Source: Cystobacter fuscus
GTDB lineage: Bacteria; Myxococcota; Myxococcia; Myxococcales; Myxococcaceae
Reading direction: 5' to 3'
DNA: 64,000 nt
NCBI RefSeq assembly: GCF_002305875.1
Contig: NZ_CP022098.1
Location: 11,284,001 to 11,348,000, forward strand
Every line of letters begins with the position of its first letter. Positions within the stretch are counted from its first letter, which is position 1. The notes beneath the pieces were generated by a model, which ran no database searches, was not told the DNA's origin, and saw only the letters and a list, made by a program, of their open reading frames with translations. The translations under genes were made by a program, and so were the position numbers. Below are positions 39,434-60,002 of this stretch, in pieces.

Positions 39434-41011
39434 ATGAAGAATACGAAGTTCAACGCGCTCTCCACCGTGACGGCGTTGTTCGCCAGCATCGCCACCGTGA
39501 ATGCCTTGCCAGCCGTTGCCGAGGCAGCTTCCGCTGACAAGAGCGTGACCGCGCCGGAGGTGTCGCCGGACATCCTCAACGCGATGCGTCGGGACCTGAA
39601 GGGCACCGAGGAGCAGTTGCTGCGCCGGCTGGACTTCGAGGCGAAGGCGCCCTCCCTGGAGCGGGGCCTGCGCGAGCAGCTGGGAGACCGCTTCGGCGGC
39701 GCCTGGTTGAACGAGGAGGGCACCGGGCTCATCGTCGGCGTCACCGACGAGGCCAGCGCCGCGCGCGTTCGCCGCGCTGGAGCCGAGCCCCGGCTCGTCA
39801 AGCACAGCAAGGCGCGGCTGGACGAGGTCATGGCGGAGCTGGATCGCAACGCCCACAACGCGCCCGCCTCGGTCTACTCCTGGTACGTGGACGTCGCCAC
39901 CAACAGCGTCGTCGTGCAGGCCGAGAGCGCCACGAGCCTGATGGCCTCGCGCGCCCAGTCGTTCACCGCCCTGAGCAGCGGCGCCAAGGACGGGACGATC
40001 CGCGTGGAGCACTCCGCCCAGGCCCCGCGCCCGGCGTACGACGTGCGCGGCGGCGAGGTCTACTTCACCGGCACCGGGGCCGGTGGCTCCTATGCCGCGT
40101 GCTCGGTGGGCTTCTCCGTGTACGGCGGCTTCGTCACCGCGGGACACTGTGGCAGCGCGGGCACCCCCACCCTCGGCTTCAACTGGCAGGCCATGGGCAC
40201 CGTCCGCGCGTCCGTCTGGCCCGGCAATGACTGGGCGTGGGTGGCCACCAACAGCTCGTGGACGCCGCAGCCCTGGGTGTACAACTACGCCAACGCCCAC
40301 GTCCTGGTGCAGGGCTCCAACGCGGCGGGCATCGGCGCCTCCATCTGTCGCTCCGGCAACACGACGGGCTGGCGGTGTGGAACGCTCCAGGCCACGAACA
40401 TCACCGTCAACTACTCCAATGGCCCCGTCTATGGTCTGTCCAAGACCAACGCGTGCGCCGACCCCGGTGACTCGGGTGGCTCGGTCATCTCCGGCAACCA
40501 GGCGCAGGGCGTGACCTCGGGCATCGCGGGCGGTTGCGCCAGCAGCGCTCCCCAGACGTTCTTCCAGCCCATCAACCCCATCCTCAGCGCCTACGGCCTC
40601 ACGCTCGTCACCAGCGGCGGCAGCAGCGGCGGCGGCGCGTCGTTCGTGTCGCGGATGAACGGCAAGTGCATCGACGTGCCCAACAGCAACTTCTCCGACG
40701 GCGTCCAGCTGCAGATGTGGACCTGCAATGGCACCAACGCCCAGAAGTTCACCTGGGACGGCGCCCGGCTGAAGATCGGCGGCAAGTGCATGGACGTGTC
40801 CGGGGCCTCCACGGCCAACGGCACCCGCATCCAGCTCGCCAACTGCAATGGCAACCGCGCCCAGGACTTCACGCTCAGCCCCGCGGGCGACCTGGTCAGC
40901 TACCTCGCCGACAAGTGCGTGGACATCGAGGGCTTCAACGCCAACGACGGCGCCAAGCTGAGCATCTACACCTGCAACGGCACCTCGAACCAGAAGTGGG
41001 ACTTCCGCTAG
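39434..41011 (+). CDS. Secreted S1 (alpha-lytic-like) serine protease with ricin-type lectin domain
   Basis: The 525-residue preproprotein has a signal peptide (residues 1-31), then a pro-region of about 160 residues rich in Ala and Arg, as in S1E proteases that fold with a foldase prodomain. The catalytic domain (about 200-395) shows His in VTAGHCG, Asp in NDWAWV and Ser in DPGDSGGS, a complete triad. A Gly/Ser linker leads to a ricin-type CBM13 domain (about 405-525) with CIDVPNS and QKFTW/QKWDF repeats. It probably degrades prey proteins while bound to glycans. It is transcribed divergently from the GH18 gene. Confidence 0.92.
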   Translation: MKNTKFNALSTVTALFASIATVNALPAVAEAASADKSVTAPEVSPDILNAMRRDLKGTEEQLLRRLDFEAKAPSLERGLREQLGDRFGGAWLNEEGTGLIVGVTDEASAARVRRAGAEPRLVKHSKARLDEVMAELDRNAHNAPASVYSWYVDVATNSVVVQAESATSLMASRAQSFTALSSGAKDGTIRVEHSAQAPRPAYDVRGGEVYFTGTGAGGSYAACSVGFSVYGGFVTAGHCGSAGTPTLGFNWQAMGTVRASVWPGNDWAWVATNSSWTPQPWVYNYANAHVLVQGSNAAGIGASICRSGNTTGWRCGTLQATNITVNYSNGPVYGLSKTNACADPGDSGGSVISGNQAQGVTSGIAGGCASSAPQTFFQPINPILSAYGLTLVTSGGSSGGGASFVSRMNGKCIDVPNSNFSDGVQLQMWTCNGTNAQKFTWDGARLKIGGKCMDVSGASTANGTRIQLANCNGNRAQDFTLSPAGDLVSYLADKCVDIEGFNANDGAKLSIYTCNGTSNQKWDFR

Positions 41012-45196: not shown

Positions 45197-46183
45197 GTGA
45201 ATCGGACGCGGTCGAGGTCATCACGCCACCAGGGCAGAGGAAGTCTCGGCGGTCTGGCGCTCCTGGGCGCCCTGTTGGCCGGCTGCGAGACGTACTTCGT
45301 GGACCCCTACCCGCCCGACATCAGCACCCTGCCCCGTGAACGGGTGATGAAGGTGCGCGATACTCCCGTGGTCTACGGCCTCATCTTCGACCTCCACATT
45401 CCCAATGCCGCCGAGTGCACCCGCGTCAAGGGGCAGCTGACGGCGACCCTGCGGGCCGCGCTGCTCCCCCCGGGCCGGGAGGGGATGGAGCTGTCCGTCC
45501 ATGACCTCTCACCGGGGTGTGTACAGCCCAGCCAACGGACGTACCCCTATACCCGCTATGCGGAGCAGCACGCGGCGGCGGTGGCACGCTTCGGTCAGGG
45601 ACGGTTCAAGCCGGTGTTGCTCTACTTCAACAACGTGGAGCTGACGCTTCCGCCGTCCCTGAGGGAAGACTTCATCAATCTGCAAAACGGGGGCGGCAAC
45701 TCCCCTCAAGTCTGGGCCCTGACGACCCAGGAGGTCCTGAGCAACATCCGGTTCACCCAGAGCGCGCTCTGGACCTACAGCTCGGATCCCCGCCTGACGG
45801 CGAAGCTCGAGGAGCTGGCCCGGGCGCAGTTGCCTTTCATCCAGCACGAGCAGCCCCCCGCGGGGGGCTTTGCCCTGTTCACCTCGCAGGAGCTCTCCTG
45901 GGTGCGGGAATTCAAGGGGTGTACCTACGCGACCGGCCTGAGCGGCATGAACTTCGTCTACGGACCCCAGACCCTCACGGTGAACGCGGCCTATCCCCCC
46001 CGCTACCAGGTGACCGTCCCCACGCAGGAGCCGGTCCCTCGCAACCAGAAGCTCGAACCGGTGACCATCCGCTTCGCGCTCGAGGCGTGTCGCGAGCATT
46101 GCGAGCGCTTCTTCTCCACCTCCGAGGGCGAGTTGCTGTCCTGGAACGCCACGCCCCGCTGTCTCCTGTCGGGCTCCCTCTGA
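45197..46183 (+). CDS. Lipoprotein opening the motor-like operon
   Basis: A 328-residue protein starting with GTG. A signal ends LLGALLAGC, a lipobox with +2 Glu, so it may go to the outer membrane. The body has a VYGLIFDLHIPNAAECTRVK segment, an RFKPVLLYFNNVELTLPPSL strand, YPYTRYAEQHAA and several Cys that could form disulfides (GCVQPSQ, GCTYATGL, CREHCERF, PRCLL). No family is recognised. Its TGA overlaps the ATG of the next gene (TGATG at 46181-46185), so it leads a ten-gene operon. The last half repeats TxxxVPTQEPVPRN-like beta strands. Confidence 0.7.
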   Translation: MNRTRSRSSRHQGRGSLGGLALLGALLAGCETYFVDPYPPDISTLPRERVMKVRDTPVVYGLIFDLHIPNAAECTRVKGQLTATLRAALLPPGREGMELSVHDLSPGCVQPSQRTYPYTRYAEQHAAAVARFGQGRFKPVLLYFNNVELTLPPSLREDFINLQNGGGNSPQVWALTTQEVLSNIRFTQSALWTYSSDPRLTAKLEELARAQLPFIQHEQPPAGGFALFTSQELSWVREFKGCTYATGLSGMNFVYGPQTLTVNAAYPPRYQVTVPTQEPVPRNQKLEPVTIRFALEACREHCERFFSTSEGELLSWNATPRCLLSGSL

Positions 46184-46785
46184 TGCTCTCCGGACTCCTC
46201 CTCGTCCTGCTCGCCGCGGATCCCGCCTCGCCCATTCCCGGCACCGAGGGCACGCCCGTGCGCGTCGAGCGGCGGCTCCTGCTCAAGCAGGGCCACGTGT
46301 TCGCCACGGGAGGCCCGGGCTACCTGGCGCGCGGCGACTACTACAACAACCCGGGCCTGCTGCTCTCCGGGAGCTGGTACCCGATGGAGACGGGCGGCGT
46401 GGAGCTCAAGCTCGCCCTGTTCTTCTCCTCGCTCAGCGCCGCGGGCTCCGAGGTCTTCGACCGCACCGGCCTCGTCCCCGACGCCCAACGCCCCGTCGCG
46501 CTGCTCGCGGCCGGCTGGCGGCATGCGCTCGGCTACGGCAAGGTGCTCGTCGGCACCGGGACGCTGCTGCACTTCGACGTGCAGGCCGCCGGCCACCTGG
46601 GCTTCACCTTCACCGATCGCGGGGTGAGCCCCTCGCCGATGGTCGGCCCCGGCCTGCTCGTGCGCGTGAGTCCGCGCGTCCACGCCCAGCTCGATGTGCC
46701 CCTCGTGGTGACCTTCGAGAAGCGCCAGCGGGGACTCGTGTCGCTCGGGGTACTGCCCACGCTGACGTTCGGGGTGGTGCTGTGA
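46183..46785 (+). CDS. Predicted outer-membrane beta-barrel protein
   Basis: About 200 residues. A signal peptide (MLSGLLLVLLAADPAS) is followed by alternating strands rich in Gly, Tyr and Leu (LYLARGDYYNNPGLLLSGSW-like, LALFFSSLSAAG) and ending LPTLTFGVVL, an aromatic/hydrophobic terminal strand typical of outer-membrane barrels. It overlaps both neighbours: the ATG shares bases with the previous stop and its TGA overlaps the next GTG. The function is probably structural or a pore for the operon's complex. Confidence 0.6.
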   Translation: MLSGLLLVLLAADPASPIPGTEGTPVRVERRLLLKQGHVFATGGPGYLARGDYYNNPGLLLSGSWYPMETGGVELKLALFFSSLSAAGSEVFDRTGLVPDAQRPVALLAAGWRHALGYGKVLVGTGTLLHFDVQAAGHLGFTFTDRGVSPSPMVGPGLLVRVSPRVHAQLDVPLVVTFEKRQRGLVSLGVLPTLTFGVVL

Positions 46786-48485
46786 GGGTACCGCTGCTCG
46801 CGGTGGCGCTCGCCACCCATCCCTACGCCGAGCCCTTCTGGGCCCGCGATCTCACCGCGCTGGTGGAGCGGCTCACCGCGCCTCCCGTGGACCCGGCCGA
46901 TGCCGAGCGGCAGCGGCTCTTCGGCGACGTGGTGAGCTTCCTCAACTGCGAGCCCCTCGCGCCGCTGCGGCCCGAGGACAGCCCCCGGGCCCCGCGCGCT
47001 CTGTTGCGACTGGAGGTGGCCCGCCGGGGCCGGCTCGGCGCGTCCGCCGCCTCCTCCGCCACGCTGTGGCGCGACGTGCTCACCCCCGACTTCTTCCGGC
47101 GCGCCGCGCTGCTCCCCAAGGAGCAGGCGCTGCGCTGGCCCATCGAGGAGGAGAACTGGTCCTCCGAGACGCTCGAGCTGCGGCTGCGGCCCTCGTCCTG
47201 TGGGCAGCCCGTCCCCGCCACGGATGAGCTGCCCCTGCTCACCTCCGAGCTGGAGCAGGAGGTGGACAAGACCCTGGGCGCGGAGGTGGCGCACCGGCTG
47301 CTCTACCACCGCGCATCCCGGCTGCTCACGCTCGGGCGGGCCGACGAGGCGCGGGAGGTGGCGCGCCGGTTGAATCCCTCCGCCATGGGCGACGCCCTGC
47401 GGCCCCTGGGCCAACTGCTGCGGCTCGGCCTCGGAATCGATCCCCCCGCGGGCTACCTGTCCCTCGTGGACGAGCCCGTGCTCTCCCCGTTGCGGATGCC
47501 CATCGTCGCGCAGGCCGCGGCGCACCTGTCCACCGAGGCCCGCTGGCGGGAGGTGCTCGCGATCACCGAGCCCTACGCCCCGAGGCCCGATGCCCGGGCC
47601 TCCCTCTCCGAGTCGCCCCAGCGCTGGGATGTCTTCTACCGGCGGGCGCTGGCGTACCAGGCGCTCGGGGAACGAGAGTCGCTCGCGCGCATGTGGCCCT
47701 CCATCTTCCCCGCCCTCGCCAGCGCCCAGGACTCCCGGGTGGAGGCGCTGCGAGGCATCGCCCTGGCCGATCTGGCGCGCGGCACGCTGGACACCCAGGC
47801 CCTGACGCTGCTGCGCGACCTGGGACCCGCCGCCGCCTTCCCCCGGCGGCTGGCCACCCTGGGAGGCCTCGCGCTGGACCGGGGCAACGTGCGGCTGGCG
47901 CTCGACGTCTCCGAGCGGTTGCTCCTCGAGAAGAGCGCCCTCTTCCGGGTCCGGGGGCACACCCTGCGCGCCGAGGTGGCGCTCGCCTCGGGCGACGCGA
48001 CGGGGCTCACCCGCGCCATCGAGCGGCTGCTCTCGCTGCGCCGTCAGGAGCCCGTGCCCACGAAGGACCTGGAAGAGGTGGACCGCATCGTGCTCGCGCT
48101 CGCACAGACGTTGGTGACGGCGAGCGCGGACCTGACGGAGGCGCGGTGGCGCCCCCTGCTCGCCGCCCAGTTGGAGGGGATGCGCCAGGCGGTGCACTCG
48201 CGCCACGAGAAGGCCTTTCCCGCGCTCCTCGCGGCACTCGAGGACCGGGGGCCCCAGGCGGCGGCGAAGGGCAAGCGACTGGAGGCCTTCGTCGCGGTGG
48301 GCCAGGTGGCGGTGGGCGCGCCTCCGGGACTCGAGCCTCCGCCGCCCCTCACCGTGAGCTGGCCAGAGCTGTGGTCCCTGCTCGCCCTTCCCCTTCCCGA
48401 GGGCTCCTGGCGCGACTGGTTCCCGCGCGAGCCCGCTTCCCCCGTCTCCGCTCCCGCGAAGACCGAGGTTCCGCATGCGCCGTGA
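46782..48485 (+). CDS. Helical-repeat (TPR-like) protein
   Basis: The 567-residue protein begins with GTG inside the previous stop (GTGA). The N-terminus is hydrophobic (VRVPLLAVALATH) and may be a signal. The rest is helical, with TPR- or SEL-like blocks: RLLTLGRADEAREVARRLNP, YQALGERESLARMW and LALDRGNVRLALDVSERLL. Such arrays bind protein partners. The end is Pro-rich (EPPPPLTVSW). No family is recognised. It overlaps the next gene by 11 bases. Confidence 0.6.
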   Translation: MRVPLLAVALATHPYAEPFWARDLTALVERLTAPPVDPADAERQRLFGDVVSFLNCEPLAPLRPEDSPRAPRALLRLEVARRGRLGASAASSATLWRDVLTPDFFRRAALLPKEQALRWPIEEENWSSETLELRLRPSSCGQPVPATDELPLLTSELEQEVDKTLGAEVAHRLLYHRASRLLTLGRADEAREVARRLNPSAMGDALRPLGQLLRLGLGIDPPAGYLSLVDEPVLSPLRMPIVAQAAAHLSTEARWREVLAITEPYAPRPDARASLSESPQRWDVFYRRALAYQALGERESLARMWPSIFPALASAQDSRVEALRGIALADLARGTLDTQALTLLRDLGPAAAFPRRLATLGGLALDRGNVRLALDVSERLLLEKSALFRVRGHTLRAEVALASGDATGLTRAIERLLSLRRQEPVPTKDLEEVDRIVLALAQTLVTASADLTEARWRPLLAAQLEGMRQAVHSRHEKAFPALLAALEDRGPQAAAKGKRLEAFVAVGQVAVGAPPGLEPPPPLTVSWPELWSLLALPLPEGSWRDWFPREPASPVSAPAKTEVPHAP

Positions 48486-49638
48486 AGCCATCGTCCTCCT
48501 CACCGGGCTCCTGTGGGCGCTCGGCGCGGGGGCCCAGACGCCCACAGAAGAGGCGCCGCCGACGTCACCCCCCGACAACGAGATGTCCGCCGAGGCCAGC
48601 ATCTACGCCCGGCCGCGCACGCCCCCACGGCTGGAGGCGCGCGAGGGACGGCTCGTGCGACCGGGTGACCGCGTGGACGCCAACGACGTGCTGGATGAGA
48701 TCATCGACGAGTTCGCCGCGGACGTGGCGCGCCTGGGCGCCAGCCGCATCTCTCCCATCCTCCTGGAGCGGGTGCGCGTCTCGGAGAACATGAATCCCGA
48801 GTTCGCGAGCGTCTTCGAGGCGCGCCTGGTGGCCGCCATCTACCGCGCGGCGAACGTGCGGGTGGTGCGCTGCTACGAGTGCTACGCCACGCACGCCCAG
48901 GTGGAGGATGGCACGTGGGTGGTGCGCCGGGGTCTGGCGCGCCGAGAGGACCTGCAGGAGGTGATGAAGAAGTACAACGCCCAGGTGGTGCTCAGCGCGA
49001 GCCTCACCCTGTACACCGCGCCCAACTCCTTCGCGTTCGACGTGGAGATGGTGCGCGGGGATGACGCCTCCATCTTCTTCGCCGAGGGCTACCGGGTGCA
49101 CCCGCACACGGCGCTGCTCTACCGCTCCGCGGACAAGGTGCAGCACCGGGAGGCGCGGCTCAAGGACCTGGAGGACCGCATCAACGCGAAGCCGCGCTTC
49201 AATCACGCGGTGCACCTGGGCGCCATCATCATCCCCACCCAGAACCATCCGGACGGGGCCATCTGGGCGCCCTACACCGCCTACCGGTTCACCGAGGCGT
49301 TCGGGGAGGAGCGCACCTGGCGCGCGGGCGGGACGGTGGCGGCCATCATCAACCCCACGCGCATCGGAGGCGCGCTGCTGGAGGCCACGCTGCTCTCGCG
49401 CATCAACAAGGAGAACGTCTACAGCATCAACTGCTTCGGGGGCGGTTCCGTGGGCTTCCTCGTCACGGGGGTGACGGGCAACTCGCCCATGATCAACGCC
49501 CAGGCGGAGTGTGTGCTGGCGCACCGGATCACCGTCCAGGCGAGCCTCGGGTACCTGGTGCCCTTCGCGAGCAGCGAGGACAGTACGTATTTCGTGGGCG
49601 GGGTGACCCCGCAGCTAGGGATGGGTTTCACATGGTGA
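48475..49638 (+). CDS. Exported protein with predicted C-terminal beta-barrel
   Basis: A 387-residue protein with a signal peptide (VLLTGLLWALGAGAQ). The middle (about 60-200) is an alpha/beta domain with VVRCYECYATHAQVEDG and VVLSASLTLYTAPNSF, resembling FlgT- or CsgG-like ABC/periplasmic domains. From about 235 the alternating strands (AVHLGAIIIPTQNH, GGTVAAIINPTRIGG, SVGFLVTG) finish TPQLGMGFTW, with a terminal aromatic residue as in outer-membrane barrels. It could be the envelope ring or channel of the complex. Comparison to FlgT-like domains is a weak structural hint. Confidence 0.6.
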   Translation: MRREAIVLLTGLLWALGAGAQTPTEEAPPTSPPDNEMSAEASIYARPRTPPRLEAREGRLVRPGDRVDANDVLDEIIDEFAADVARLGASRISPILLERVRVSENMNPEFASVFEARLVAAIYRAANVRVVRCYECYATHAQVEDGTWVVRRGLARREDLQEVMKKYNAQVVLSASLTLYTAPNSFAFDVEMVRGDDASIFFAEGYRVHPHTALLYRSADKVQHREARLKDLEDRINAKPRFNHAVHLGAIIIPTQNHPDGAIWAPYTAYRFTEAFGEERTWRAGGTVAAIINPTRIGGALLEATLLSRINKENVYSINCFGGGSVGFLVTGVTGNSPMINAQAECVLAHRITVQASLGYLVPFASSEDSTYFVGGVTPQLGMGFTW

Positions 49639-50309
49639 ACTCCAGGTACTGGGGATTGCTGCTCGCGGCGGTGCTGCCCGCGTGCACGACCACTCCGACC
49701 ACCAAGGTGATGGTGGTGCCGGATGAGATGCGGCGCTCGGCGGCCCCGAGCCGGCGGCCAGGAGCCGACAGGGACAGGGGCCCGCCCCTCACGCCGCCGC
49801 AGAAGTACATCCTGCGTCTGGCCGAGAACGGCCGCGTGTGGGAGATGGAGCTGCCCGAGGAGTCGGGGGGCTACGAGGTGCGCCTGCCGCTCGCGGGCGG
49901 AAGTCCCGTGGAGATGCTCACCTCCGCGGACGAGGAGATGCTCGCCGAGTCCGTGCTGGGCTTGAAGCAGGACAAGGCCCCCGCGTCCAAGGGCGAGACG
50001 AAGCCGGCGGGCAACGCCCCGGTGGTGGACGCGAACCGGGCGGCGCGCACGCGCAGCTACCTGGGGGGCGTGGCGCGGGTGAAGGAGATGTACGCCGCGC
50101 GCAAATACGAACTGGCCCTCATCGAGCTCGTGGCGCTGGAGAAGGAATACCCCCAGGACGCGCGGCTGCTGGCCATGAAGGGCTCGCTCTACGTCAAGCT
50201 GAACCAGCCCAAGCTGGCCCGGCAGGCGTGGGAGAAGGCCCTGTCCATCAATCCGGACGACGCGGGCGTGGCCGAGGCCCTGCGCGCCACCACCGCGGGA
50301 GAGGAGTAG
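49632..50309 (+). CDS. TPR lipoprotein
   Basis: About 225 residues, with a lipobox LLAAVLPAC. A short beta segment (QKYILRLAENGRVWEMELPE) is followed by a linker and a C-terminal TPR pair (AARKYELALIELVALEKEYP, LLAMKGSLYVKLNQPKLARQ). It overlaps the preceding stop by seven bases (ATGGTGA) and stops four bases before the MotA-like gene. The arrangement resembles pilotin- or PilF-like lipoproteins that stabilise outer-membrane assemblies. GTG at 49635 is an alternative start. Confidence 0.65.
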   Translation: MVNSRYWGLLLAAVLPACTTTPTTKVMVVPDEMRRSAAPSRRPGADRDRGPPLTPPQKYILRLAENGRVWEMELPEESGGYEVRLPLAGGSPVEMLTSADEEMLAESVLGLKQDKAPASKGETKPAGNAPVVDANRAARTRSYLGGVARVKEMYAARKYELALIELVALEKEYPQDARLLAMKGSLYVKLNQPKLARQAWEKALSINPDDAGVAEALRATTAGEE

Positions 50310-50313
50310 GACC

Positions 50314-51114
50314 ATGCACTTCATCGTCGGAATGCTGGGGCTCGGCCTGACCCTGGCCTACACCCTGACCCAGGGGCACGCGAGCGGCTTCGGGGGCATC
50401 ATCCACGTGCCCTCGCTCGTGCTGCTGGGGTTCGCGCCGCTGTGCATGACGGTGGCCTCGTACAAGTTCAGCGAGCTCGGGGGCGCGGCGCGGGCGGTGG
50501 TGCGCGCGCTGCGCTTCTCCGCGTCGCGCTCGCGCGCCCAGCTCTATGAGGCCCTCACCCAGTTCGCCGCCGAGGTGCGCCAGCGTCGTCCGGCCCGCGC
50601 GCTGGAGATCGCCAATCAGGCGCAACACGACGTGCTGCGGCAGCTCGGGCCCCTCGTCATCCGCCAGTACTCCACCGCGGACATCGAAAGCACCGCCAGC
50701 ACGTCGCTCTTCTGCATGGTGAGTGGCATGAAGCGCGCCGAGGACGTCCTGGGCACGCTGTCGCGCGTGGCGCCGGCCACGGGCCTCGTGGGCACGGTGC
50801 TCGGACTCATCTCGCTGCTCAAGGACCTGTCGCGCTTCGAGCAGCTCGGCCCCTCCATGGCGCTCGCGCTCTTGTGCACCCTGTACGGCCTGCTGCTCGC
50901 CAATGCCGTGTACCAGCCGCTCGGACGCGTCATCCACTCGCACATGACGGTGGCGGTGGAGGAGGCGCGGCTCATCACCCGCGCGCTCGTGCTCATCCGC
51001 GAGGACAAGCCGCTCGCGGACGTGCGCAAGCTCTTCGAGCTGTCCGGCACCTCGCCCCATGGCGCGGGCGCCCCGGCCGCCGAGATCGCCACCGGAACGG
51101 CGGGTGAGCCGTGA
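50314..51114 (+). CDS. MotA/TolQ/ExbB-family proton channel protein
   Basis: The 266-residue protein has four membrane segments: residues 1-18, about 26-50, about 150-168 (VAPATGLVGTVLGLISLL) and 187-210 (GPSMALALLCTLYGLLLANA). The TGLVGTVLGL signature and the large cytoplasmic loop between segments 2 and 3 are those of MotA. With the next gene it should form a proton-driven stator. A GAGGAGTAGG ribosome-binding site lies before the ATG. The tail is short, unlike the long tail of ZorA in the Zorya defence system. It is not part of a flagellar operon. Confidence 0.88.
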   Translation: MHFIVGMLGLGLTLAYTLTQGHASGFGGIIHVPSLVLLGFAPLCMTVASYKFSELGGAARAVVRALRFSASRSRAQLYEALTQFAAEVRQRRPARALEIANQAQHDVLRQLGPLVIRQYSTADIESTASTSLFCMVSGMKRAEDVLGTLSRVAPATGLVGTVLGLISLLKDLSRFEQLGPSMALALLCTLYGLLLANAVYQPLGRVIHSHMTVAVEEARLITRALVLIREDKPLADVRKLFELSGTSPHGAGAPAAEIATGTAGEP

Positions 51115-51737
51115 AGGAGGATCCAGAGCTGCAAGAGATGCTGCGAGGCGGCCAGGAGGACGAGCTGTGGCTCATCAGCTACGCGGACCTGCTGACGCTG
51201 CTCATCGGCTTCTTCGTGCTGCTGCTCGCCGTGTCGCCGCCGAAGATGGCGCAGTTCGAGCGCATGGCGGCCTCGCTCTCGGGCGAGGCGCCCCCCCTGG
51301 AGGAGCTCAAGGACAAGGTGGACACCTTCATCACCCAGGAGGGGTTGCAGCAGAAGGTGCTCACCCGCCAGGAGACGGACGGGCTGGCCATCGAGTTCAA
51401 GGACGCGCTCCTGTTCGACTCGGGCTCGGCGGACATCCGCGCCGAGGGCAACGCGGCGATCACCTCGATCGCCCGGATGCTACAGACGCTGCCCTCTCGT
51501 GGGCTCGTCATCGAGGGGTACACCGATGACGTGCCCATCCGCACCGCCCGCTTCGCCTCCAACTGGGAGCTGTCCTCGCAGCGCGCCATCAACGTGCGCA
51601 CCGCCCTCGAGCAGAGCGGTGTGGGCCGTGAGCGGATGTCGGTGCGGGGCTTCGCCGATACCCGCCGCGTCGACGTCCCGGGCTCGCCCGAGGAACAACG
51701 CGCCGCCAACCGCCGGGTCGTCATCCGGGTGGAATAG
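51111..51737 (+). CDS. MotB-like stator protein with OmpA-type peptidoglycan-binding domain
   Basis: The 208-residue protein starts with a GTG overlapping the MotA-like stop (GTGA). One membrane span (about 19-40, ELWLISYADLLTLLIGFFVL) contains Asp26, placed like the proton-carrying Asp of MotB. A short linker and plug-like helix lead to an OmpA-type domain (about 95-208) with LLFDSGSADIRAEG, EGYTDDVPI, NWELSSQRA and ANRRVVIRVE, which binds peptidoglycan. It is compact compared with flagellar MotB. Confidence 0.9.
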   Translation: MKEDPELQEMLRGGQEDELWLISYADLLTLLIGFFVLLLAVSPPKMAQFERMAASLSGEAPPLEELKDKVDTFITQEGLQQKVLTRQETDGLAIEFKDALLFDSGSADIRAEGNAAITSIARMLQTLPSRGLVIEGYTDDVPIRTARFASNWELSSQRAINVRTALEQSGVGRERMSVRGFADTRRVDVPGSPEEQRAANRRVVIRVE

Positions 51738-51740
51738 CCA

Positions 51741-53453
51741 ATGACTCGCCTGTCACGACATCTTCTGCCGCTGCTTCCCGTCCTGGCCTGGGCGGGCATT
51801 GCCCCGGCCGCGCCCTCCACGCCCCAGGCCCGCCTGCGCGCGGAGTCCGAGGAGCGGGCTCGCACGGAGATCACCGATTTGTTGCGCACCCTCTGCCCCG
51901 AGCAATGCGTGCTCGTGTCGGTGGAGGCCCGCGTCGAGGAGGAGGCCGTGGGCGGCGCGGCTCCGGGCTTCGAGAGCCTGTCGACGAGCGCGAGCCTGCC
52001 TACCCTGCGCTCGGTGAGCGCGCGCGTGCTGACGGACAGCCAGCTACCGGGCCCCTTCCGCACCCGGCTCAAGGACCTGGTGGCCCAGCGTCTCAAGACG
52101 GTGAGCGCCCAGCCCACGGTCGAGATGGAATCCGTGGCCTTCCCGCCACGCAACGCCCCCCACCTGGAGGCGCCCCCCCGCGAGGCGAAGCCGCCCCCGC
52201 CCTCGGCCACGCCCACCCCTCCACCCGAAAACGAGCCAGAGCCCAAGCCCGAGGTGCCCCTGAGCCAGCGCGCCGAGGAGCGACTGCTGGAGGCGGCCCC
52301 CTTGCTGGCGGTGGCGGCGCTGCTCGCGCTGACGGTGCTGGTGCTGGGCGTGCTGCTCGTGGTGGCCACCCGCCGCGCGTCGCCGCCCCCGGGCCTGGAG
52401 TATGGGCCGGAGCTGCCCCTGCCTCCCCTCGAGCCCGCGCCCGCGGCCCCTCCCGCCCCCACCGAGTACCCGTCCCAACGGGCCGGGCGGCTGGAGCGGA
52501 CGCTGCGCGAGGAGCGCTCGGTGCGCAACGCCGTGGTGCGCGAGGCGCTCGCGCGGGGCGAGCTGCGGCAGGTGGCGCTGTGGACCCGGGAGATGGGGGA
52601 GTTCCTCCTGGAGGACCTGAGAGGAGACCCCGCTCTGTCCGCGTCGCTGGTGGGACTCGCCGCCGAGCTGGGGCGCGTGCCCTCCGTGGACGAGGGAGCA
52701 CGGGCCTCCGCGCTGTACGACCTGGAGGGGCGGACCATCGCCTCGCGGCTGACCCAGGCGGAAGGCTCGGTGGAGATGGCCTTCGCCTTCCTGGAGGGGG
52801 TGCGGCCCGAACGCTTCGCGAGCGCGTGCCTGGGCCTGGCGCCGGGAGCCCGGGAGGTGGCGCTGCGCTTCGCGCCCTCCGCGCTGCGCTCGACGGCCCT
52901 GCAGTCCCTGAACTCCGCCCAGCGACGGGAGCTCGCGCTGGGCCTCGCCCGCCAGCCCGAGCTGAGCACGCGCTACGCCCTGGCGGTGGCGGACGAGCTG
53001 CGCACCCAGCTCGCCGAGAGCACGGGAGGCGTCTCCCAGCTCGAGCGCGTCCTGGGCGAGGTGCTCGACACGCTGTCCATGGCCGATCAGGACCGGCTCG
53101 TCGAGCGGCTGCGGCAGGAAGGCTCGGAGAAGCTGGCCTCGTCCCTGGTCACCGAGTCCACCCTGGTGAACGCGCCGGTGGAGGTGCTCGGTGCGGCCCT
53201 GCTGCGCCTGCCCGCGGCCCAGGTCGTCACCTATCTGAGTGGGGCCGAGGGCTCGTTGCGTGAACAACTGTTGAATGCCTGCCCCGCCTCGCTCCAGCGC
53301 GAATTGCGCGAGGAGCTGGGAATGCGCGGCGGGGGACGTCCAGAGGAGTTCACTGGCGCCAGAAGAGAGCTGCTTGCCTGTGTGAAGGATGAGATGATTC
53401 GCAGGGGATTGAGCACATCGCAGAATGGCGCGCGCGCCGGGCGCGCCAATTGA
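51741..53453 (+). CDS. FliF-like/FliG-like fusion (rotor-like ring protein)
   Basis: The 570-residue protein has a signal peptide (1-23), then a periplasmic domain at about 30-136. Its order is a helix (RTEITDLLRTLC), a strand with VLVSVEARVEEEAV, a SVSARVLTDSQLPGPF strand and RTRLKDLVAQRLKTV helix, ending in VEMESVAFP, like the ring-building part of FliF. A Pro-rich linker and one membrane span (about 186-210) follow. The cytoplasmic part (about 250-560) is helical. Its last 90 residues align by pattern with FliG-C: TLVNAPVEVLGAALLRLP, VVTYLSGAEGSLREQLL, ELREELGMRG, then ARRELLACVKDEMIRRGL. That is the domain stators push in flagella. It directly follows motA- and motB-like genes. This is inference from pattern, not a search. 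Confidence 0.7.
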   Translation: MTRLSRHLLPLLPVLAWAGIAPAAPSTPQARLRAESEERARTEITDLLRTLCPEQCVLVSVEARVEEEAVGGAAPGFESLSTSASLPTLRSVSARVLTDSQLPGPFRTRLKDLVAQRLKTVSAQPTVEMESVAFPPRNAPHLEAPPREAKPPPPSATPTPPPENEPEPKPEVPLSQRAEERLLEAAPLLAVAALLALTVLVLGVLLVVATRRASPPPGLEYGPELPLPPLEPAPAAPPAPTEYPSQRAGRLERTLREERSVRNAVVREALARGELRQVALWTREMGEFLLEDLRGDPALSASLVGLAAELGRVPSVDEGARASALYDLEGRTIASRLTQAEGSVEMAFAFLEGVRPERFASACLGLAPGAREVALRFAPSALRSTALQSLNSAQRRELALGLARQPELSTRYALAVADELRTQLAESTGGVSQLERVLGEVLDTLSMADQDRLVERLRQEGSEKLASSLVTESTLVNAPVEVLGAALLRLPAAQVVTYLSGAEGSLREQLLNACPASLQRELREELGMRGGGRPEEFTGARRELLACVKDEMIRRGLSTSQNGARAGRAN

Positions 53454-53464
53454 GGGGATAGTTC

Positions 53465-54505
53465 ATGCGCGCGTTGGGGCTGATTCTTGTCGCCACCCTG
53501 GGCAGCGGCTGCATCATCGAGCCACCGGATCTGATCCGCTTGGACGGAGGAGATGAGTGGCCCGATGGGGGCAAACGTCCGACATCGGACGGCGGCTTCG
53601 ACATCGAATGGGACGGCGGTCTCGGAGGCGGAGGTGGCGGCTGGGACGGCGGAGCCTGGGACGCGGGCTCTGGGCCACGGGGGAACTTCCCGGGTGGCGG
53701 CGCGAACGGAGACCGTGGAACGGGCGTACTCTGGCTGGTGCGCATCGACCGGAGCACGGCGAATCTGGCCGCCTCGTATGGCTCGCTCATCGAGACGATG
53801 ACCCAGCAGCTCATCGCCCAGGGCTTCGACATCCGGAGAACGGCCGTGGGCTCGCTCTATGAGCCGAGGCTGTTGTCGGGCAACGAGAGCGCGACTCCAT
53901 CCGCCGCGAGCGTGCAGTCCCTGCTGGAGAGCGCGGCCACCTACAGCGGCACGACTCCCACCGGCTGCAGCAGCCAGCACCTGCTGTCGCTCACGGTCCG
54001 GCTCAGCGAGGCCACGGTGGCATCGTCTGGCTCCCGTCCCTTCGCGGACCCGCTCGGCGCCCTGCTCGTGGTGATGATCGACCATGGGAGCCATCCGCAA
54101 GACTACGGCCCCGGTTGTGACCCGGCCGAGAAGACCCCGGCGGAGCGGTTCGGCGTCGAGCACATGCCCTGGCTCAACATCGGCAGTCCCCCGACCTCCG
54201 CCTGGCGCATCCCCCGATCCCAGACGCGCTTCCTCTTCGTCTCCACGTCGGAGAACGAGAGCTACGCGCAGTTGCGTGAGCGCTGCGCGAGAATGAGCAC
54301 CTTCCCGCGGACCGCGCTCGATGCCATCAGCCCCTCGGAGCACCCCTTCTACGAGCCCTTCAGCGTCGGGCTGAACGGCTTCCAGCCCGGACTGGGGACG
54401 CGGATCGACCTGTGCCAGGCCGTGGCGCAGGACTGGGCGGGCTTCTCGCGCGGCTTCGCGAGGAACTGGGCCCAACTGCTGAGCCTGCCCGCCGACCAGA
54501 GATGA
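53465..54505 (+). CDS. Lipoprotein with Gly/Asp-rich linker
   Basis: A 346-residue protein with the lipobox LGSGC. A Gly/Asp-rich linker (GGGGGWDGGAWDAGSG) leads to a globular domain of vWA-like alternation: VLWLVRIDRSTANLA (a possible metal-site start), LLVVMIDHGSHPQDYGPGCD and FLFVSTSENESY. Cys residues probably form disulfides. The fold call is tentative. The gene is 11 bp after the FliF/FliG-like gene and overlaps the next one by an ATGA. It may be an envelope partner of the motor. Confidence 0.6.
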   Translation: MRALGLILVATLGSGCIIEPPDLIRLDGGDEWPDGGKRPTSDGGFDIEWDGGLGGGGGGWDGGAWDAGSGPRGNFPGGGANGDRGTGVLWLVRIDRSTANLAASYGSLIETMTQQLIAQGFDIRRTAVGSLYEPRLLSGNESATPSAASVQSLLESAATYSGTTPTGCSSQHLLSLTVRLSEATVASSGSRPFADPLGALLVVMIDHGSHPQDYGPGCDPAEKTPAERFGVEHMPWLNIGSPPTSAWRIPRSQTRFLFVSTSENESYAQLRERCARMSTFPRTALDAISPSEHPFYEPFSVGLNGFQPGLGTRIDLCQAVAQDWAGFSRGFARNWAQLLSLPADQR

Positions 54506-55107
54506 GGGCACGGGGCGCACCGCGAAGGGCCGGGCCGGTGGCGGGGGGAGTCCGCACCGCCTGGCGTCCGCGCGGAGCGCCCCGAGTCGTGGCCGCACGT
54601 GGGGCCAGGAGGCGCCCGACCGCCGCGTCCCGGCCCGCGCGGCGCTGGAGGTGGGGCCTCGCGGCGCTGCTCCTACTGTTCATGCTCTTCTGGCTGTGGC
54701 CCTCCACTCCCGAGCCCGTGCCCCCACCCGTGGCCGTGCCCGAGGCACCACCGCCGCCCCCCGTCGTCACGCGACCGGTGGTGAAGAAGAAGGTGGCACC
54801 CAAGCCCTCCCCTCCCCCCCCGGCGGCGCCCATGTCCTCGCAGCGGGCGCTGCTGCGCCGGGCCATGGAGGCGCGAGCCCCGGACCTGCGCGCCTGCGCC
54901 CTGCCCCCCGGAGCGCCCACGACGCTGGGAGCGAGGATTCGCGTGGCGCGCGGGGGAGCCACGAAGTCGGTCGCCTTCGCGTCCGGACAGCGCCTGCCCC
55001 GGGAGCTGGCCGAGTGCCTTCGCCAGCGCCTGCTCCAGTGGGAGTTCTCGGACGTGGGACTGAGCTCGGACGTGGAGATCTTCGTCGACTTCGCGCTCGG
55101 CGGATGA
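54502..55107 (+). CDS. Single-span TonB/AgmX-like protein
   Basis: The 201-residue protein has an Arg-rich N-terminus (about 1-48), one membrane span (WGLAALLLLFMLFWLW), a Pro-rich stretch (PVPPPVAVPEAPPPPPV) and a Lys-rich segment. It ends in a small domain with ALLRRAMEARAPDLRACALP, GARIRVARGGATKSVAF and ECLRQRLLQWEF. The layout is like TonB or the GltJ/AgmX proteins, which couple an inner-membrane motor to the outer membrane. Its ATG overlaps the previous stop. It ends the operon just before a strong hairpin. Confidence 0.7.
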   Translation: MRARGAPRRAGPVAGGVRTAWRPRGAPRVVAARGARRRPTAASRPARRWRWGLAALLLLFMLFWLWPSTPEPVPPPVAVPEAPPPPPVVTRPVVKKKVAPKPSPPPPAAPMSSQRALLRRAMEARAPDLRACALPPGAPTTLGARIRVARGGATKSVAFASGQRLPRELAECLRQRLLQWEFSDVGLSSDVEIFVDFALGG

Positions 55108-56620: not shown

Positions 56621-57199
56621 ATGAACACTCGACTTCGCTCCCTGACCCTCCTGGCCTCTCTCGTGCTCTGCATGCCCGCGCTCGCCGCGGAGTCCAACGA
56701 GGCCGCGGCCAAGCCCGTGAAGACGGTCGTCCAGTCCGTGCGCCTGAGCAAGGACGACCTGGCGCTCAAGCAGTTGGCCGACGAGGAGATGGGCCGCTTC
56801 CTGCTCGGCGAGGACTGGGCCAAGGGCACCGACGCCCAGCGCAAGGAATTCACCAGGCTCTTCCACAGCCTCTTCGCGAAGATCGCCTTCCCCAAGGTGC
56901 GCGAGAACTTCAAGAACCTGCAATCCATCACCTACGACCCGCCCTCGGTGGAAGGGAACAAGGGCAACGTGGGCTCGCTCGTCATCATCAACCACCCGAT
57001 GAAGAAGCAGGAGATGAAGCTGAAGTACGCGGTGGTGAAGGACTCGAACGCCTGGAAGGTGCTCGACGTGTTCGTGCTCGGCGACTCCATGCTCACCGGT
57101 ATCCGCGATGACCAGGTGCGCCCCATCTTCCAGCAGGGGGGTTGGGAGCACCTGCTCGACATGATGCGCAAGAAGGACGCGGAACTGTCCAAGAAGTAG
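56621..57199 (+). CDS. MlaC/Ttg2D/HpnM-family lipid-binding periplasmic protein
   Basis: A 192-residue secreted protein with a signal peptide ending PALAAES. It has the Tgt2/MlaC-type pattern: KQLADEEMGRFLLGEDWAKG, then RKEFTRLFHSLF and a VVKDSNAWKVLDVFVLG strand with the lipid-pocket style. These proteins shuttle phospholipids or hopanoids across the periplasm. With the RND transporter 145 bp downstream it forms the HpnM/HpnN-like arrangement known from hopanoid clusters. No hopanoid biosynthesis gene is in view. Confidence 0.85.
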   Translation: MNTRLRSLTLLASLVLCMPALAAESNEAAAKPVKTVVQSVRLSKDDLALKQLADEEMGRFLLGEDWAKGTDAQRKEFTRLFHSLFAKIAFPKVRENFKNLQSITYDPPSVEGNKGNVGSLVIINHPMKKQEMKLKYAVVKDSNAWKVLDVFVLGDSMLTGIRDDQVRPIFQQGGWEHLLDMMRKKDAELSKK

Positions 57200-57344
57200 C
57201 AGTCGTGGTCTTGCCGCGGGGGCCCGGGTTTATTCCCATCGGGAGGCTCGGGCCCCAGGGCACCCCGGAGAGCGGCTGGACGGGCGATGAGGACCCTCGC
57301 CGCGCTTCTGGTGGGGGCGGTTCTCCGCTAGGGTCCGCGGCCGC

Positions 57345-60002
57345 ATGAGTGACTCGATCCACAAGCCGCCGCGCCTCGCCCTCGCCTATGCCAGCCTGCT
57401 GGTCCGCAGGCCCGGGCTCGTTCTCCTGGTCATCGCCGCGTTGTTCGCCGTGTGCCTGTGGGGAACCACGAAGCTGACCATCAACTCCAACCAGCTCGAC
57501 CTCATCGACCAGGGCCTGCCCGAGGTCAAGGAGGTCAAGCGCATCATCGACATGATCGGTGGCAGCGGCCACCTGATGCTCGCGCTGCGCGGAGACGACG
57601 AGGCCACGCTCAAGAAGGTCGCGGACGACCTCGGCGCCCAGTTGCTGGCGGACAAGCAGAACGTGCGCTCCGTCACCTGGAAGCTGCCCGTGGAGTTCAT
57701 CCAGCAGAACATGGCCCTGTTCATCAAGACGGAGGACCTGGTCGAGGGCAAGCGCCGCATCATGGCCTTCCTCAAGGATCAGATCCGCCGCGCCAACCCC
57801 TTCTTCATCGAGATCCAGAAGACCGAGCCGGTGAAGCTCGACATGACGGACCTCCTGAACAAGTACGGCAGCGTCGGCAAGAAGAGCATCCGGGATGACT
57901 ACAACATCTCGAACGACAAGAAGATGATCATGATGCTCATCAAGCCGATGTGGGACTCCAACGAGCTGGGCAAGTCCCGGGCGTACATCGAGGAGCTGCG
58001 CCAGAAGCTCACGGCCTACTCGAGCCTGCCCGAGTCCGGCGGGGTGAAGCTCGTGGAGGACTACGAGCTGATGGGCAACAAGCAGACCGTGGCCTATGGC
58101 TTCACGGGCTCCTACAAGACGGCGGTGGACGACTCGTACGCCATCGAGGAGTCGCTCCAGCCGGTGACGCTGCTGGCGTTCGCGGCCATCTTCATCATCA
58201 CCATCTTCGCCTTCCGCAAGTGGGTGCCCACCATCATCGTGGCGAGCGGCACGGTGGTCGGCACCATCATCACCATGGGCTTCACCTACGTGACCGTGGG
58301 CGAGCTGAACATGATCACCAGCATCCTCGGTGGCTTGCTCATGGGCTTCGGCATCGACTACGGCATCCACTTCATCTTCCGCACCCGGCTGGAGCTGGGC
58401 CAGGGCAAGCGGTACGACCAGGCCATCCGCGACGCGGTGGTGAACGCGGGCCGGCCCGCCCTGGTGGCCGCGGTGGTGACGTCCGGCTCGTTCTTCGTGC
58501 TCATGGTCAGCGAGTTCCGCGGCTTCAGCCAGTTCGGCTTCCTGGCCGGCTGCGGCACCTTCATCATCGGCGTGCTGCTCTTCGCATGGAGCCCCGCGCT
58601 GCTGTCCATCGCGGGCCGCATCAACCCCGAGCTGCCGCGCAAGCTCATCGGCGAGATGAAGCCCCCGGCGCTCAACAGCAAGTCGGGCCAGGAGCTGCGC
58701 GTGCCCAAGCCGGGGCTGGTGCTCGGCGTGAGCACCGTCGTCGTGCTCGCCCTGTGCGCCTGCGCCATCAACTGGACGAGCGAGGAGATCCCCCTGGACC
58801 GCTCCACCACCCTGTGGGAGCGCGTCAAGGGAGGCGTGCGCTTCAACTACAACAGCCGCGCGCTCATCCCCGAGGGCCAGCCGTCGGTGCGGCTGCAGGA
58901 TGAGATCACCAGGCGCTTCAACATCTCCGCGGACCCCATCGCCGTCTATTCCAAGACGCTGGAGGAGGCGAAGGCCATCTACGAGGAGCTCACCCAGCAC
59001 CCGGACAAGTACAACACCGTGGATCAGGTGGTGAGCATCTACACCTTCGTTCCGCCGCCCGAGACGGCGGCCGCCAACGCGAAGATCCTCCAGGAGTGGA
59101 AGGAAGAGCTCAAGGACATCGACGTGAACGCGCTGCCGCCCGAGACCCAGGACAAGGCGGCGCTGTTCATGAAGATGCTCGAGGCCCGGCCCTTCGACGT
59201 GCACGGCGTGCCGGCCAACTACCGCGAGCAGTTCATCCACCTGCCGGAGACGAAGCCGGAGAACCACGGCTACCTCACCTTCATCTACCCGGCCGTGGAC
59301 CTGTGGGACGGCAAGAAGATGCTCGACTTCGCGGACCAGACGAGCTCCATCCCCACGCCTGAAATCAAGGACGCGTCGGGCAAGGTGATCGCCCCGGCGC
59401 AGATCCACCGGGCCGCGGGGGCGGCGCCGCTGTTCGCGCGGCTGGCGCGCATCGTGCTCGCGGACGGCAAGCTGGCGGTGTTCCTGGTGACGCTGTGGAT
59501 TCTGTTCATGCACTTCCTGGACTTCCGCAGCGTGTCGCTGGCACTCGCCTCGGTCATCCCGCTCACGGTGGGTCTGGCGATGATGCTCGGCATCATGTCG
59601 CTGGCGGACATCCACCTGAACTTCATGAACATCATCATCCTGCCCATCCTCCTGGGCTTCGGGGTGAGCCACGGCCTGTACCTGCTGCACCGCTTCCTCG
59701 AGGGCACCTCCCCCATGGTGGCCCTGCGCAGCGTGGGCGCCGCCGTGGCCTCGTCCACGCTGACGACGGCCGCGGGCTTCGCCGCCCTGCTCGTCGCCAG
59801 CCACAACGGCCTGAAGTCCATGGGGCTCGTGGCGTGCATCGGCCTCATCACCACGCTCATCGTGTCCTTCACGGTGCTCGCCGCGGTGATGCAGGTGATG
59901 TGGGATCGCCGCGCGGGTCAGCGCGCCGCGAGTGCTTCCGCTCCGGGCGCCCCCAGCGCTCCGTCCACCGACAAGTCGGACACGCCGGAGCACGCCGCCT
60001 GA
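57345..60002 (+). CDS. MMPL/RND-family lipid transporter (HpnN-like)
   Basis: The 885-residue protein has the two-fold RND layout: span 1 near residues 25-45, a large periplasmic domain, five or so spans near 255-420 (ILGGLLMGFGIDYGIHFIF), a second domain, and a second span cluster from about 700 to 860 (IIILPILLGFGVSHGLYLL). The GxxxDY and GVSHG motifs in the transmembrane region fit a proton-driven MMPL pump. Paired with the MlaC/HpnM-like gene, it probably exports lipids or hopanoids to the outer membrane. It ends with an Ala/Pro/Ser-rich tail. Confidence 0.9.
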   Translation: MSDSIHKPPRLALAYASLLVRRPGLVLLVIAALFAVCLWGTTKLTINSNQLDLIDQGLPEVKEVKRIIDMIGGSGHLMLALRGDDEATLKKVADDLGAQLLADKQNVRSVTWKLPVEFIQQNMALFIKTEDLVEGKRRIMAFLKDQIRRANPFFIEIQKTEPVKLDMTDLLNKYGSVGKKSIRDDYNISNDKKMIMMLIKPMWDSNELGKSRAYIEELRQKLTAYSSLPESGGVKLVEDYELMGNKQTVAYGFTGSYKTAVDDSYAIEESLQPVTLLAFAAIFIITIFAFRKWVPTIIVASGTVVGTIITMGFTYVTVGELNMITSILGGLLMGFGIDYGIHFIFRTRLELGQGKRYDQAIRDAVVNAGRPALVAAVVTSGSFFVLMVSEFRGFSQFGFLAGCGTFIIGVLLFAWSPALLSIAGRINPELPRKLIGEMKPPALNSKSGQELRVPKPGLVLGVSTVVVLALCACAINWTSEEIPLDRSTTLWERVKGGVRFNYNSRALIPEGQPSVRLQDEITRRFNISADPIAVYSKTLEEAKAIYEELTQHPDKYNTVDQVVSIYTFVPPPETAAANAKILQEWKEELKDIDVNALPPETQDKAALFMKMLEARPFDVHGVPANYREQFIHLPETKPENHGYLTFIYPAVDLWDGKKMLDFADQTSSIPTPEIKDASGKVIAPAQIHRAAGAAPLFARLARIVLADGKLAVFLVTLWILFMHFLDFRSVSLALASVIPLTVGLAMMLGIMSLADIHLNFMNIIILPILLGFGVSHGLYLLHRFLEGTSPMVALRSVGAAVASSTLTTAAGFAALLVASHNGLKSMGLVACIGLITTLIVSFTVLAAVMQVMWDRRAGQRAASASAPGAPSAPSTDKSDTPEHAA

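Follow-up and report, generated by a model that had tools for sequence, protein, structure and literature searches.

We asked what a single open reading frame in Cystobacter fuscus, a soil bacterium without flagella, could be making from two parts of a flagellar rotor. FliF and FliG are ordinarily separate proteins that join at the FliF C-terminus. A preliminary description of the window (the whole stretch of DNA analysed, 64,000 nucleotides, positions 11,284,001 to 11,348,000 of NZ_CP022098.1) had read the frame at 51741-53453 as a polypeptide resembling both, and as part of a pared-down rotor. We therefore looked at the two halves of the protein, its neighbours and the rest of the genome, which is complete (12.35 Mb).

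Results

A conserved gene of ten in one operon

The frame is open from ATG to TGA on the forward strand and encodes 570 residues (Table 1). In relatives sharing 96 to about 46% identity it is likewise open and lies at the same genomic position. The dN/dS of 0.27 against a congener with 80% identity shows that the gene is under purifying selection. Among the Myxococcota genomes searched, 17 carry proteins of this family (type 1). When a divergent member was used as the query, a second clade of fusions (type 2) was detected in eight others. A scan of genome contigs with two peptide patterns returned loci of the Myxococcota type only, a result that does not by itself establish absence outside the phylum. 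No viral relative of the fusion protein was found.

The anatomy of the protein was read from an AlphaFold model (pLDDT 71.6) and agrees with the four parts proposed earlier: a signal-peptide-like start that is disordered in the model, one periplasmic domain (residues 28-132) with the alpha-beta-beta-alpha-beta order of a ring-building fold, a single span located by hydropathy, and a helical cytoplasmic region. A Pro-rich linker separates the periplasmic domain from the span.

Table 1. Features of the fusion gene and of its operon, in window coordinates.
Feature	Coordinates	Strand	Evidence
Lipoprotein with conserved Cys	45197..46183	+	lipobox LAGC
Exported 200-aa protein, beta-barrel-like by eye	46183..46785	+	kept in 13/13 loci searched
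Exported protein, 567 aa	46782..48485	+	conserved in cluster
Periplasmic LpoB-like domain and 8-stranded outer-membrane beta-barrel	48475..49638	+	AlphaFold model; structure comparison
TPR lipoprotein	49632..50309 (also open from GTG 49509)	+	TPR matches; lipobox LPAC; conserved
MotA, flagellar-type	50314..51114	+	PF01618 E 9e-17; NCBIfam best = PomA; P173, P222, R90 equivalents
MotB with plug and OmpA-like peptidoglycan-binding domain	51111..51737	+	PF13677, PF00691; D32 equivalent
fliF(RBM3-TM2)-fliG fusion gene, 570 aa	51741..53453	+	Pfam, hhalign, Foldseek, structure comparison
Signal-peptide-like N-terminus, residues 1-25	51741..51815	+	sequence; disordered in AlphaFold model
FliF RBM3-like periplasmic domain, residues 28-135, without beta-collar	51822..52145	+	model fold, FliF RBM3 Z 9.2-9.9, hhalign
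Cys52 and Cys56 (CPEQC), invariant, periplasmic domain	51894..51908	+	15/15 homologues covering site
Single transmembrane span, residues 190-208, FliF TM2 equivalent	52308..52364	+	hydropathy; hhalign alignment
FliG-like helical region, cytoplasmic, residues 245-554	52473..53402	+	hhalign, AlphaFold model, structure comparison
FliG_C torque domain, residues 456-550	53106..53390	+	PF01706 E 7.8e-6; 1qc7 rmsd 1.9 A/89 residues
E524-E525, equivalents of FliG D288/D289 facing MotA Arg90	53310..53315	+	E-E in 14/16 homologues
Lipoprotein	53465..54505	+	lipobox GSGC; conserved in cluster
TonB-like Pro-rich protein, single-span	54412..55107, start codon uncertain	+	sequence features

All ten operon genes (45197-55107) are on one strand, spaced by -94 to +11 bases, and distant Myxococcota families also carry the set. 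In the model of the 48475 product, the periplasmic part resembles LpoB (Z 11.7) and the barrel resembles those of NspA, OmpA and OmpW (Z 15-17); in one relative the gene for this protein is present in two tandem copies. The C-terminus of the 54412 product matches the AgmX/PglI model NF033768 weakly (E 0.03; 14 bits, where the cut-off is 40). Pfam and PDB searches gave no name to most of the other operon proteins. Several exported members carry invariant cysteines, and together with the pair in the periplasmic domain of the fusion these suggest disulphides across the machine. Zorya was considered and set aside: MotB alone matched ZorB models, while MotA and four other operon proteins that were scanned matched none. 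Elsewhere in the window, visual inspection picked out a secreted protease of the trypsin type that carries a ricin-type lectin domain at its C-terminus (39434-41011), as well as an exported MlaC/HpnM-like protein and, after it, a large RND transporter of the MMPL/HpnN type, adjoining metK on the opposite strand (56621-60002).

The cytoplasmic half is FliG

The last 90 or so residues had been said to follow the FliG-C pattern, and PF01706 was indeed matched there above its cut-off (26.6 bits against 23.3); FliG_C was found in 16 of the 17 homologues. When the cytoplasmic part of the family was compared with 21 FliG proteins by hhalign, the profiles aligned over FliG residues 81-306 (96%, E 3.4e-9). 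Within this match (E 3e-9), residues about 330-440 correspond to FliG_M and align with FliG 81-199, a segment that by itself matches weakly (22%); in Pfam, FliG_M was detected in type-2 fusions only, below cut-off. FliG_N was matched in two of 17 homologues at E 0.02, and the full-chain alignment extends to FliG residue 22.

Against the PDB, phmmer with the single fusion sequence gave no match. Profile searches retrieved FliG, at E 0.006 with a narrower alignment and at E 3e-14 when the family alignment included one type-2 member. With the AlphaFold model as the Foldseek query, matches 1-13 were all FliG, and the C-terminal domain superposed on FliG from the MotAB-FliG complex 8ucs with 2.1 A over 88 residues, close to the value for 1qc7 (Table 1). 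MgtE_N, which appeared weakly in 13 of 17 homologues, was rejected as the identity of the helical part, since FliG_C is stronger and FliG heads all structure lists.

The periplasmic half is the end of FliF without its collar

The periplasmic domain had been attributed to FliF/YscJ. This attribution held for the RBM3 domain of FliF, and it did not hold for whole FliF or for YscJ/SctJ. RBM1, RBM2, TM1 and the beta-collar are all absent, and with one periplasmic domain and one span the fusion is not classed as a full FliF. For the window family alone, FliF similarity stays weak as long as the collar is included: the match improves only upon deleting the collar columns, and removing 64 columns elsewhere in FliF brought no gain. 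Against collar-less FliF, the N domain and span aligned collinearly with RBM3-TM2 (E 9e-6, score 46.3) and the full window family reached 88% with E 3.2e-6, RBM3, TM2 and the C-tail being matched, although these E-values are somewhat optimistic because the deletion site was picked by a scan. The score of 46.3 compares with 22.9 at most in 100 column shuffles and 17 at most for five unrelated operon families. In a comparison restricted to the N domain, at the initial choice of collar boundary, the true alignment was outscored by one shuffle in 60.

Structure comparison also retrieved FliF RBM3, in an alignment spanning the collar. The same fold occurs in MamB/MamM and OsmC, which score about 8-9 (MamB Z 9.2, rmsd 1.9; OsmC Z 8.7). 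MamB and OsmC thus come so close to FliF RBM3 that the fold alone does not decide FliF identity. FliG could then have been attached to some other periplasmic alpha-beta domain, one that resembles RBM3 without deriving from FliF, as the near-equal fold of the MamB/MamM C-terminal domains might suggest; Pfam FliF_C, too, has no match in the window protein or in any type-1 genome. We consider this quite improbable, given a collinear RBM3-TM2-C-tail match (E 3e-6) that far outscores its nulls, and given the type-2 fusions, which match FliF themselves and to which the window family aligns after the collar cut.

Type-2 fusions have their own operon order, fliFG-TPR-motA-motB-motB. Their proteins aligned with FliF through RBM3, the collar region and TM2 (97%, E 4.9e-11) and with FliG (E 1.8e-23). 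In Pfam, FliG_C was detected in seven of seven (up to E 5e-24) and FliF_C in five of seven, below cut-off (E 6e-4 to 0.02); in these five the two domains follow in order. Type 2 and the window family aligned in the FliG part at E 4.6e-11. As judged from these alignments, type-2 fusions, with RBM3 and collar both recognisable, bridge FliF/FliG and the window family. In a FliG tree, type 1 forms one group and type 2 another, both apart from flagellar FliG, a topology compatible with one shared fusion event or with separate ones. Altogether, both halves passed profile-profile comparison, and 51741-53453 encodes a natural fusion protein in which the final part of FliF (RBM3 and TM2, beta-collar deleted) is joined to FliG.

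A flagellar-type stator with part of the FliG contact

We then looked at the stator genes located directly upstream. Flagellar PomA/MotP models fit the operon MotA far better than TolQ/ExbB do, and all the aligned type-1 stators share the equivalents of MotA P173, P222 and Arg90 and of MotB Asp32. Two contact pairs are known between MotA and FliG, R90/D288-D289 and E98/R281 (PMC12505986). The charged FliG residues of this interface are retained in part. The acidic pair is present as E524/E525 and is missing only from two homologues that are among the most divergent, whereas the K264 equivalent is lost and R281 is replaced by Ser in the window protein and its closest relatives (R or K in 10 of 16 homologues). 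MotA E98 is not kept, and the E98/R281 pair survives only in part. R533 corresponds to FliG R297 in the closest five only, and type-2 MotA is without the Arg90 equivalent.

No flagellum in the genome

The operon contains neither FliM nor FliN, as had been supposed for a rotor without a switch. The complete genome contains no FliF_C or full FliF and no rod proteins. FliM models gave two matches, one about 5 kb from the FliG-like gene of a type III secretion locus and the other far below cut-off; the genome is without flagellar FliM. Among 22 fusion-bearing genomes tested, rod proteins are absent in 18, and the remaining four also carry flagellar genes.

The type III secretion locus, at about 3309000 of the genome, encodes a FliG-like 500-aa protein, flanked by an SctJ-like lipoprotein on one side and an SctL/FliH-like gene on the other; this secretion system is non-flagellar and has a FliG-like component of its own. 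A second, weak FliG_C match in the genome proved to belong to it. An explanation of the fusion resting on this secretion system and on the persistence of rotor proteins in non-motile bacteria, which some species do retain (PMC12199754), could draw on that FliG-like protein. It is very hard to reconcile with the selection on the fusion gene, with ten-gene synteny across the phylum, with an operon that holds no export genes and lies 8 Mb away from the secretion locus, and with FliG parts that form their own clade separate from flagellar FliG; we regard it as highly improbable.

Discussion

The best reading of the locus, to which we give a probability of roughly 70%, is a self-contained rotary machine in the envelope that is powered by ions and has a fused rotor without a switch. 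It is based on the domain identities, the channel and contact residues, the conservation of the operon and the lack of a flagellum, as these were read from sequence. By analogy with the flagellar homologues, MotA5MotB2 units anchored to peptidoglycan via MotB would conduct ions at the MotB Asp and act on the FliG_C domains to rotate a ring built of one fused subunit, in which the FliF:FliG stoichiometry would be fixed at 1:1. As FliG is linked to RBM3 by one membrane helix, torque would go straight to the periplasmic RBM3 ring. With no FliM/FliN there would be no direction switch, and the ring would probably turn in a single direction. Movement would be relayed through the wall as far as the outer membrane by the operon's other envelope proteins: the periplasmic ones, the lipoproteins, the TonB-like protein and the outer-membrane barrels. 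The ring, its rotation, the load and the purpose are all inferred.

What the machine would move can be proposed with modest confidence. The most likely use is to move a surface or outer-membrane complex, as in a gliding-type motility, which we prefer because the one MotA and two MotB of type-2 loci and the weak AgmX/PglI similarity recall Agl-Glt. The same likeness feeds another explanation, a stator-driven machine without full rotation, in which the FliFG ring serves as a scaffold or clutch and MotAB pulls, as proposed for Agl-Glt, Ton and Tol. The TonB-like protein, lipoproteins and barrels would suit it, as would type-2 loci arranged like AglR/AglQ/AglS (PMC9389320), but the operon MotA is closer to PomA/MotP than to TolQ/ExbB, its Arg90 contact with the acidic pair of FliG is kept, and no FliG is known in Agl-Glt or Ton/Tol. 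We hold it to be unlikely, though less so than the other alternatives.

Compared with the flagellar motor, the rotary machine proposed here shares RBM3, TM2, FliG_M, FliG_C, the MotA/MotB channel Asp and prolines, and the MotA Arg90/FliG acidic pair. It differs in having FliF and FliG as one chain and new envelope partners, and in being without RBM1, RBM2, TM1, collar and, in its operon, FliM/FliN, rod, hook, filament and export genes. In Myxococcota, Agl-Glt and other 5:2 motors (PMC9389320) likewise pair a motor resembling MotAB with lipoproteins, barrels and TonB-like proteins, but no FliF or FliG part is known there, and the window MotA is of the flagellar type.

Our literature search turned up a single natural FliF-FliG fusion, that of non-flagellated Chlamydia, where a truncated FliF is joined to FliG (Bergeron 2016, PMC4768692). 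The Chlamydia protein has no RBM3-type (SpoIIIAG-like) domain and only an M-like region of FliG, whereas the window protein keeps RBM3, has FliG_C and stands alongside MotA/MotB. An engineered FliF-FliG of Salmonella is functional and turns with a directional bias (PMC4768692), and in Vibrio such a single chain forms rings (PMC11481574, PDB 8z4d); these were made in the laboratory from complete or almost complete FliF and sit in a flagellum, unlike the natural fusion described here. In the open-access literature searched, with few subscription papers or preprints, a stand-alone MotAB and FliF-FliG unit is not described; the FliG-MotA torque pair is there only from flagella, and other ion-driven 5:2 motors are without a described FliG rotor.

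We incline, by a small measure, to see in this flagellum-free, switchless motor, whose one-chain rotor would drive a load via the periplasm up to outer-membrane components, a new class of rotary machine, widely though unevenly distributed across Myxococcota and occurring in two forms (with or without the beta-collar; one or two MotB). If so, the motor core would be able to exist independently of the flagellum, which bears on the origin or the stripping-down of the flagellar motor, and the operon would offer a minimal switchless system, with FliF and FliG fixed at one to one, for tests of torque generation. For the myxobacteria themselves, the fusion operon may represent a second envelope motor besides Agl-Glt.
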